Source: Lachnospiraceae bacterium
GTDB taxonomy: Bacteria > Bacillota > Clostridia > Lachnospirales > Lachnospiraceae
NCBI GenBank assembly: GCA_024696615.1
Contig: JAILGS010000081.1
Span: 1 to 64,000 of the forward strand
DNA: 64,000 nt
Direction: 5' to 3'
The translations under genes were made by a program, and so were the position numbers. This document shows, one piece after another, positions 52,961 to 55,939 of this stretch; within the stretch, counting starts at the first letter, position 1; each line of letters begins with the position of its first letter. The notes beneath the pieces are model-generated. The model was not told where the DNA came from. It made no database searches and worked only from the letters and a program-made list of their open reading frames with translations.

Positions 52961-53818
52961 CTATGCCAAAACCTTGGATAAGAATTCCTTTAAACGTGCA
53001 TTCTTCGGATGTTCAAAAATCTCTTCCGGAGTACCCGCTTCTAAGATTTTACCACCATCGATGAATAACACCTTGTTAGCAATCTCTCTGGCAAATCCCA
53101 TCTCATGGGTAACCACCACCATGGTCATGCCTTCTTTGGCCACCTGCTTCATTAATTCCAATACTTCTCCAACCATCTCCGGATCCAGTGCAGAAGTCGG
53201 CTCATCGAACAGGATCACCTGTGGATTCATGGCTAAGGAGCGCACGATGGCAACTCTTTGCTTTTGTCCACCGGACAGCGTGGATGGATATACATCCGCT
53301 TTATCCGCCAGTCCAATTCGCTCCAGTAATTTTAGGGCAGTCTCCCTGGCCTCTTGGTTAATACTGGCTTTCGTCTTGGTAATTGGCACCATTGCCACCT
53401 GTTTTTCCTTACTCCGAAACAGATTGCAAAGTCCATTCCATGCATTCTTTCTCTGATTGCGCTTTAAATCCTGCAACTGTACATGCACAGGAGCAAGCAT
53501 AATATTCTGTAATACGGTTTTATTCTGGAAAAGATTAAAATGCTGGAATACCATGCCCATATGTCTTCGATGAACATCAATATTCACGGACATATCCGCA
53601 ATATTCACTCCATCGAACATAATCTTTCCACCCGTTGGATCTTCCATACAATTCAGACAACGAAGGAAGGTACTTTTACCAGAACCGGATGGACCAATTA
53701 CCACCACAATATCGCCCTGATTGATGGCAACACTGATGCCATCCAACACGTTCTTGCCATCGAAACTCTTCTCTAAATCGATGACATCAATTAATTTCAT
53801 ATTAGTTTCTGCGGTCAC
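52961..53818 (-). CDS. Polar amino acid ABC transporter ATP-binding protein
   Basis: Walker [24 protein letters not shown]; signature [40 protein letters not shown]. Confidence 0.94.
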
Positions 53819-54512
53819 TGCGTCGTAAGCTCCTTTCCATCTGTTTAATCAAGATACTGATCAAAATTACCATTACTAAGTAGATGGCAGCCATCACTAA
53901 GTATGGAACCATGAATTCATAACTATTACTTCCGATATAGTTAAAAGCCACATATAAATCGCTGGCACCAACAAAGCTCACCACGGAAGTTTCCTTGATC
54001 AATGCGATAAATTCATTACCAATGGTAGGAAGAATATTCTTCACAGCCTGAGGAATCACAATCTTCACCATGGTGGTCCAAAAGCTTAATCCCAGAGCAC
54101 GTCCCGCTTCCATCTGTCCTGGATCCACGGAAAGAATTCCGCCCCTCATAATTTCTGAAATATAAGCACCGGAATTTAATCCGAATACCCAAATGGCCAC
54201 CTGTACTCCCGTCATATGCATTCCTAACAGAGGAAGCATTACATAATAGAATAACAGAAGCTGTACCACCATGGGAGTACCACGGAATAATTCCACATAG
54301 AATGTAGCAATTCCATTTAAGATTCTTGGAAGTACCTTATAGCGCGGAAGTACACGTACAATGGCAATCAAAGTACCAATCAATAATCCGATAAACATGC
54401 CAAGAAAAGCAATTAATAAGGTATTTCCAAGACCTTCTAAAACCTTCTCATACCCCTTATACTCGAAGAAAATGCGGAGGAAATTCTCCCATTTTGCCCC
54501 AAAACCATTCAT
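53802..54512 (-). CDS. Polar amino acid ABC transporter permease
   Basis: [63 protein letters not shown]. Confidence 0.94.
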
Positions 54513-54533: not shown

Positions 54534-54576
54534 ATAAAAAAATACCCTTGGTACCACATAAGATACCAAGGGTGAA
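54534..54576 (-). terminator. Terminator/attenuator between substrate-binding protein and permease genes
   Basis: ACCCTTGGTA-tcttatgtgg-TACCAAGGGT-ATTTTTTT on minus strand. Confidence 0.75.
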
Positions 54577-54579
54577 TTG

Positions 54580-55452
54580 TTACTGTACGGAATTAATCGC
54601 CTCGGTGATAAACTTCGCTGGTGCAGCATCAATAATGACGTAATTAATATTACCATTTAACAGATCCTGAACCGCTAAAGAACCATTCTTATAACCAACG
54701 GTAGTTAATGGAAGGCCGGTAAAGCCCCAATCCGCATCGCCTTCACAATAGAACTGACCGGTGGTACCTGTCTGAACACCAATCTTGGATAACTTATCCT
54801 TACTATTTAAGATTGCTTCTACGGAAGCTGCATCCTGACATGCATCAAATTCGGTATCCGTGCTAAGTACAATTAATTTCTGGCTGGCTACATAGTAGGT
54901 ATCCGTAAAATCCACATATTCCTTACGATCTTCCTTGACGGTAAGTCCGGACATTGCAATATCAGCCTTGTGCTGACCTACGGAAAGACATACTGCGTCA
55001 AAATCCATATTCTCAATAACTAATTCCATACCAAGGTGATCTGCAAGGAGCTTGGCAATCTCCATATCAATACCCACATAGCTACTACCCTGCATATACT
55101 CAAATGGAGCAAAAGCAGCATTGGTGGCAATCACTAACTGATCCTTAGAAGCATCAAAGGTAGCGGACTCCACTGGAGTAGGAGTACCATCGCCAAAATA
55201 CTTATTACAGATTTCATCATAAGTTCCGTCGGACATGATCTGCTTAATAAATTCATTGGTGGAAGCAAGGAGTTCTGGCTGTGCCTTATCCACACCAAAC
55301 GCATATTCCTCTTCCGTTAAATTTACCTCAATGACCTTGGCGGTAAGTTTTTCCTTCGGAGCATCCTGTGCACTCTTGCCACAACCTGCGAACGAAGCAA
55401 CCATAAGTCCCATGGAAAGGCTAAGAGCAAGCAATTTCTTCATCTTCATCAT
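54580..55452 (-). CDS. Amino acid ABC transporter substrate-binding lipoprotein with permuted domain order
   Basis: Lipobox VASFAGCGKS; SBP_bac_3-type body DQLVIATNAAFAPFEYMQGSSYVGIDMEIAKLLADHLGMELVIENMDFDA. Confidence 0.9.
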   Translation of the reverse strand: MMKMKKLLALSLSMGLMVASFAGCGKSAQDAPKEKLTAKVIEVNLTEEEYAFGVDKAQPELLASTNEFIKQIMSDGTYDEICNKYFGDGTPTPVESATFDASKDQLVIATNAAFAPFEYMQGSSYVGIDMEIAKLLADHLGMELVIENMDFDAVCLSVGQHKADIAMSGLTVKEDRKEYVDFTDTYYVASQKLIVLSTDTEFDACQDAASVEAILNSKDKLSKIGVQTGTTGQFYCEGDADWGFTGLPLTTVGYKNGSLAVQDLLNGNINYVIIDAAPAKFITEAINSVQ

Positions 55453-55618: not shown

Positions 55619-55939
55619 TTAATAAAATGTACCATAGGTAGAATTTAGCTGATCTGCTAATCCGTTCACCGATGTATCCGATTCCGTCTCATCCGTGGAC
55701 TCCTCTACCTGATCATAGCCGCCATCCGCCTTCTTATCTTCTACGAATTCCTTCACCATTGCTACAATGCCTTCCGGATCAATTCCATGCACCCAACAAG
55801 CTTCTTCAATGGTTTCTGAAAGCGATGCGGGACAGCTTACACAATGCATTCCTGCATCCATTAATACATAGGCAATCTCCATATCAAAACGAAGGAGATC
55901 TGCAATAATGGTATCTTTTGTAATCTCAATGATTTCCAT
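55619..55939 (-). CDS. DUF1858 (ScdA-N/disulfide) domain protein
   Basis: ITKDTIIADLLRFDMEIAYVLMDAGMHCVSCPASLSETIEEACWVHGID. Confidence 0.88.
   Translation of the reverse strand: MEIIEITKDTIIADLLRFDMEIAYVLMDAGMHCVSCPASLSETIEEACWVHGIDPEGIVAMVKEFVEDKKADGGYDQVEESTDETESDTSVNGLADQLNSTYGTFY

Follow-up and report, generated by a model that had tools for sequence, protein, structure and literature searches.

Natural circular permutation in a probable amino-acid importer lipoprotein of the SBP_bac_3 family from Clostridia, and other rotations among its relatives

The window analysed here, 64,000 nucleotides from a Lachnospiraceae bacterium (contig JAILGS010000081.1, positions 1 to 64,000), encodes a substrate-binding protein (SBP) in which the segments of the SBP_bac_3 fold occur in a rotated order. 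The canonical C-terminal tail (T) comes first, the N-terminal half of lobe 1 (N) follows, and the chain ends with lobe 2 (C), giving tail-N-C (TNC) in place of N-C-tail (NCT). The permuted order is real, each segment being significant by itself. We put a probability of roughly 0.88 on the full reading, namely that nature has circularly permuted the SBP_bac_3 fold in this protein, which is the substrate-binding lipoprotein of an ABC importer of the polar-amino-acid type. The features are listed in Table 1.

Table 1. Permuted lipoprotein gene, its segments and neighbouring importer features in the window
Feature	Position	Strand	Basis
Circularly permuted SBP_bac_3 lipoprotein, order TNC, 290 aa	54580..55452	-	kept in about 36 homologues
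Signal peptide and lipobox FAGC, residues 1-24 (Cys24, lipid anchor)	55381..55452	-	sequence; Cys24 invariant in 34 aligned homologues
Linker from lipid anchor to tail segment, residues 25-37	55342..55380	-	low pLDDT at mature start; variable in alignment
T segment, residues 38-88, canonical C-terminal tail, here N-terminal	55189..55341	-	T HMM E 7e-14; PDB tail matches; pLDDT mostly 94-98
New junction linker, residues 89-104, old C-terminus to old N-terminus	55141..55188	-	sequence; spanned by junction profile A3
N segment, residues 105-205, N-terminal half of lobe 1 in canonical proteins, with first hinge strand	54838..55140	-	N HMM E 3e-35; G169, T171, R176 invariant in alignment of 34
C segment, residues 206-290, lobe 2, here C-terminal	54583..54837	-	C HMM (residues 222-286) E 2e-15; T230, T231, D275 invariant
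Terminator-like hairpin with T run, between SBP and permease genes	54544..54573	-	12-pair stem; consensus match only
Permease of the same importer (BPD_transp_1, HEQRo subfamily)	53802..54512	-	PF00528 E 5e-24; TIGR01726 over cut-off; same order in homologues
ATPase of the same importer (GlnQ-like)	52961..53818	-	PF00005; PRK09493 E 2e-87

Segment HMMs built from canonical-order proteins only matched the window SBP once each, in the order T (residues 39-85), N (106-196) and C (222-286), with the E-values of Table 1; the ORF coordinates in the output of these searches are 14 higher than the protein residues given here. The Pfam model PF00497 is split in the same frame, its positions 97-131 aligning to the N-terminal part of the protein and positions 1-96 to the later part. 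At 109.4 bits the protein exceeds the curated cut-off of this family (26.4), and it is without the colinear N-C-tail order of the canonical fold; as its order is T-N-C, it is filed as a permuted relative of SBP_bac_3 and not as a canonical member. All parental segments are present once, in rotated order and with the old termini joined, which is what defines a circular permutation, and a scan of open frames found neither a second tail downstream of the gene nor an N part upstream of it. The T segment, made up of the second hinge strand, a strand pair and two helices, matches the tails of PDB entries 4zv1 (183-233) and 5eyf (192-244). The preliminary description had proposed a circular permutation, with a tail-like segment directly after the lipobox, the normal N-terminal half behind it, and an end just where the tail would start. 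The permutation and the order of the segments are upheld by these matches, by the conservation of ligand residues and operon, and by a confident single-fold model; the tail does lie at the mature N-terminus, but a linker of 13 residues separates it from Cys24, so that its first residue is 38 and it does not directly follow the lipobox.

A genome scan yielded 54 loci, about 36 of which encode proteins 51-74% identical to the window SBP across essentially the whole protein, with the TNC order common to them. Their records are named Lachnospiraceae, Clostridiaceae, Oscillospiraceae and Eubacteriaceae and comprise isolates as well as MAGs. An alignment of 34 sequences shows no variation at Cys24, in the tail motif or at the residues expected to form the amino-acid site. 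As the order is kept in about 36 homologues of named genome records, it is due neither to chance nor to an assembly error. The window's genome is indeed a draft (105 contigs, 81% complete), where fragments might be fused by faulty assembly or gene calling, and the preliminary description had itself named an assembly error as fatal to its proposal. The identical order in dozens of independent genomes, including those of isolates (L007, L008, L033), rules out this source of the rotation and leaves such an error a vanishingly small probability. Two loci were rejected, having been recruited via the signal peptide (L057, unrelated, and L056, with a canonical start).

Judged from its sequence and its genomic setting, the window lipoprotein probably serves an ABC importer by capturing amino acids. 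It carries a lipobox signal and is encoded next to permease and ATPase genes, and the order SBP > permease > ATPase recurs in nearly all TNC loci with enough flank, while one locus (L008) showed neither partner. The hairpin between the SBP and permease genes is a possible attenuator; neither a T-box nor any other leader RNA hinting at the substrate was found at gathering scores. Upstream of the SBP gene lies a gene for a DUF1858 / hybrid-cluster-protein-associated redox disulfide protein (window 55619-55939, minus strand). The residue set for α-amino-acid binding (xGxT, Arg, GTT loop, Asp) is present in the window SBP, and its members are presumably equivalent to ligand-site residues of GlnH. 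Among the 44 thinned TNC rows of the tree set, G169, R176, T230, T231 and D275 are identical in all, and T171 in 43. Most likely an α-amino acid would be bound in the usual closing cleft and delivered to the permease and ATPase encoded alongside. With the cleft residues unchanged, the window SBP should bind and deliver its ligand just as canonical proteins do, and we infer that it is a working binder.

AlphaFold2 (34 sequences) predicted one two-lobed fold for the window SBP, with the expected elements present (pLDDT 89.2, pTM 0.75) and with the tail strands and both tail helices among the confidently modelled parts (Table 1). A relative of the C-tail-N (CTN) order described below, L041, was also modelled confidently (pLDDT 86.5, pTM 0.77). 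Foldseek aligned about 173-198 columns of the window model, about the length of N plus C, to glutamine and arginine binders, and superposed it on several closed, ligand-bound engineered glutamine-binding chains at 2.2-2.8 Å over about 173-189 columns; as the search is colinear, these alignments cannot show the moved tail. We infer that the tail occupies its canonical position, packed against the rest of its own chain. Two other arrangements of the tail have to be weighed. The N-terminal segment might fold apart as an added domain, the rest being a truncated, non-functional relic, as could be suggested by the absence of the canonical tail from the C-terminus; conservation of the tail at key positions, its high-confidence prediction and the retention of the whole gene and operon across many genera make this very improbable. 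Somewhat less remote, yet still improbable, is an obligate, domain-swapped dimer in which the N-terminal tail completes a neighbouring molecule. A relative, the ArgBP of T. maritima, is reportedly a dimer with loose domain swapping, and the monomer model is compatible with swapping, but the model is confident as a monomer, and the 16-residue linker between T and N lets the tail pack in its own chain.

In canonical SBP_bac_3 proteins the chain passes between the lobes twice, first from lobe 1 into lobe 2 and later in the opposite direction. The main breakpoints found here, those of the TNC and CTN orders, are at or beside these two lobe crossings, so that each lobe is contiguous. In a TNC protein, lobe 1 (T plus N) and lobe 2 (C) would each be formed by one uninterrupted stretch, and the lipid anchor, which in canonical proteins is attached where lobe 1 begins, would be carried by the second hinge strand. 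In a CTN protein the anchor would have moved to lobe 2.

The TNC order is one of several rotations in the family. The segment HMMs separated NCT, TNC and CTN proteins, a form broken inside C, and multidomain permease fusions. BLAST comparison of segments assigned the CTN order to ten loci (L041, L042, L044-L048, L061, L073, L074). A third breakpoint, inside C and thus within lobe 2, is found in L085, L120 and L131, where the chain both starts and ends mid-C. Permease fusions with several binding domains occur as NCT-NCT (L138), as CTN-CTN (L159) and as a three-domain array starting with C (L158); in L158 (1000 aa) and L159 (779 aa) three and two tandem binding domains, respectively, precede the permease domain in the CTN register. 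A single CTN domain is fused to a permease in proteins of about 510-537 aa (L074, L183, L185, L187, L192, L195, L197, L204, L206, L207). A T-N junction profile, which single canonical domains can match only partly, was searched in whole genomes and gave junction-spanning matches in at least 44 of 291 genomes of the class and in at least 45 of 150 genera sampled in the window's family. Loci L165-L209 of the family sample, fetched for spanning this junction, include 14 TNC proteins, 23 CTN proteins and 9 CTN-permease fusions. In a check of plasmids and Pseudomonadota, which is a weak test, only an Enterococcus SBP/permease fusion clearly spans the junction among the 30 matches listed.

Sequence trees indicate that Clostridia have rotated the SBP_bac_3 order several times and in more than one register, with binding site and transporter operon kept, although the N segment taken alone is compatible with one TNC origin. 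Before tree building, segments were put back in canonical order and long-branched sequences were excluded. The window's TNC clade (support 99/95) groups with the CTN proteins L041, L042, L044 and L046 in a joint clade (100/99), while a second TNC group (L116, L117, L147 and L149, 100/95, with L150 nearby) is placed elsewhere, among canonical proteins. At least 8 changes between permuted and canonical order are needed on the tree, a count in which gain and loss are indistinguishable. AU tests, for which the groups were picked by architecture and not by tree, reject a single clade of all TNC proteins (p 2.7e-8), of all CTN proteins (p 2e-4) and of all permuted proteins (p 2e-61). When segments are analysed apart, a single TNC clade is rejected by C+T (p 1.6e-4) but remains acceptable for N (p 0.16); both analyses recover the window's clade together with L041, L042, L044 and L046. 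Within this joint clade, either the CTN or the TNC order may have come first.

The partner genes agree with the SBP tree in permease identity and in an ATPase insert. Identity to the window's permease is 56-61% for the CTN sisters, 40-44% for the second TNC group (TNC-2) and mostly 32-48% at other CTN, TNC-2 and NCT loci. After the LAPV segment, the ATPases of the window's TNC clade carry an insert of about 35 aa (in the window, ATPase residues 115-150, about 53370-53476). L041 and L046, two of the CTN sisters, share it, and none of the remaining ATPases inspected from CTN, TNC-2 and NCT loci has it. The ATPases of L034 and L035 carry a different insert of about 65 aa.

As to the route, tandem duplication followed by trimming, as suggested in the preliminary description, is plausible. 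The rotation would have arisen by an in-frame tandem duplication and subsequent loss of the outer parts. In this way a short linker would have come to connect the old C-terminal tail with the old N-terminus, and the chain would have gained new ends immediately ahead of the strand leading from lobe 2 back into lobe 1. Tandem arrays could be a ready source of rotated registers, as any rotation may be obtained by dropping outer pieces from a repeated domain. Homologues with two binding domains, which the preliminary description had proposed to look for, do exist, as tandem NCT-NCT and CTN-CTN proteins fused to permeases, but no in-frame duplicate of the complete domain was found in the window's own clade. 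The latter result is also what would be expected if a real permutation had been reached in another way, by fusion of separate lobe genes or by a cut-and-paste of the tail, and lobe fission and fusion are conceivable since the lobes end up contiguous. We consider this the less likely course, though one with appreciable weight, given that tandem arrays of both registers occur in the same phylum (L138, L158, L159) and that no split-lobe genes were noticed, albeit without a dedicated search. It concerns the origin only and is compatible with all else that is proposed here.

The window SBP shares with canonical SBP_bac_3 proteins (GlnH, ArtJ, ArgBP; PF00497) the three segments, the ligand-site residues, the lipoprotein form seen in Firmicutes and an operon with a BPD_transp_1 permease and a GlnQ-like ATPase; it differs in its tail-N-C order, in having each lobe contiguous and in the anchor on a hinge strand. 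The betaine binders OpuAC and ProX are related type II proteins with their lobes in different order. They belong to another family with other ligands and are only a lead. In GlnPQ-type proteins with tandem SBD1-SBD2 (PDB 6h30), a tail-N junction like that of the window SBP lies between the domains, and the window SBP (P0001) aligns across it. Unlike the window SBP, however, they have two complete canonical domains fused to the permease, with no ends missing; by analogy they may serve as a model for the duplication stage.

A natural permutation of a binding protein is already known. TpMglB-2 (Tp0684) of Treponema pallidum is a naturally permuted ABC binding lipoprotein, like the window SBP, for which ligand binding was shown and the designation 'type Ic' proposed (PMC4990184). 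It differs in its type I fold, its sugar ligand and the transfer of the first N-lobe strands to the C-terminus; a single rotation was described, and it added a fourth lobe crossing (PMC4990184), whereas one crossing is removed in the window SBP. The type I sugar-binding fold on which type Ic is based is not that of the window SBP, whose sequence and fold matches are to amino-acid-binding SBP_bac_3 proteins. No report of a permutation in SBP_bac_3 was found in the open literature, subscription papers being mostly outside the search, and the interesting part of the present case is the recurrence within this family.

For TpMglB-2 it has been proposed that rotation may relieve strain of the tether near the ligand (PMC4990184). 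This idea fits the CTN proteins poorly, because their anchor is close to the GTT ligand loop. A wider and rather doubtful proposal is that the clostridial SBP_bac_3 fold behaves as a closed ring that has been cut repeatedly at the two lobe crossings, with permease-linked tandem arrays supplying the registers. Rotations might then be kept for moving the anchor from lobe 1 to the hinge or lobe 2 and for leaving one covalent crossing in place of two, so altering opening and docking.

The results carry a warning, as permuted proteins are overlooked or broken up by profile searches and by structure searches that are colinear. A widely studied transporter family holds several natural rotations, some of them within one conserved operon lineage, and its tandem arrays look like the duplication stage. 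The family thereby offers natural pairs for testing how ligand binding, opening and docking depend on where the termini lie and how the hinge is connected.
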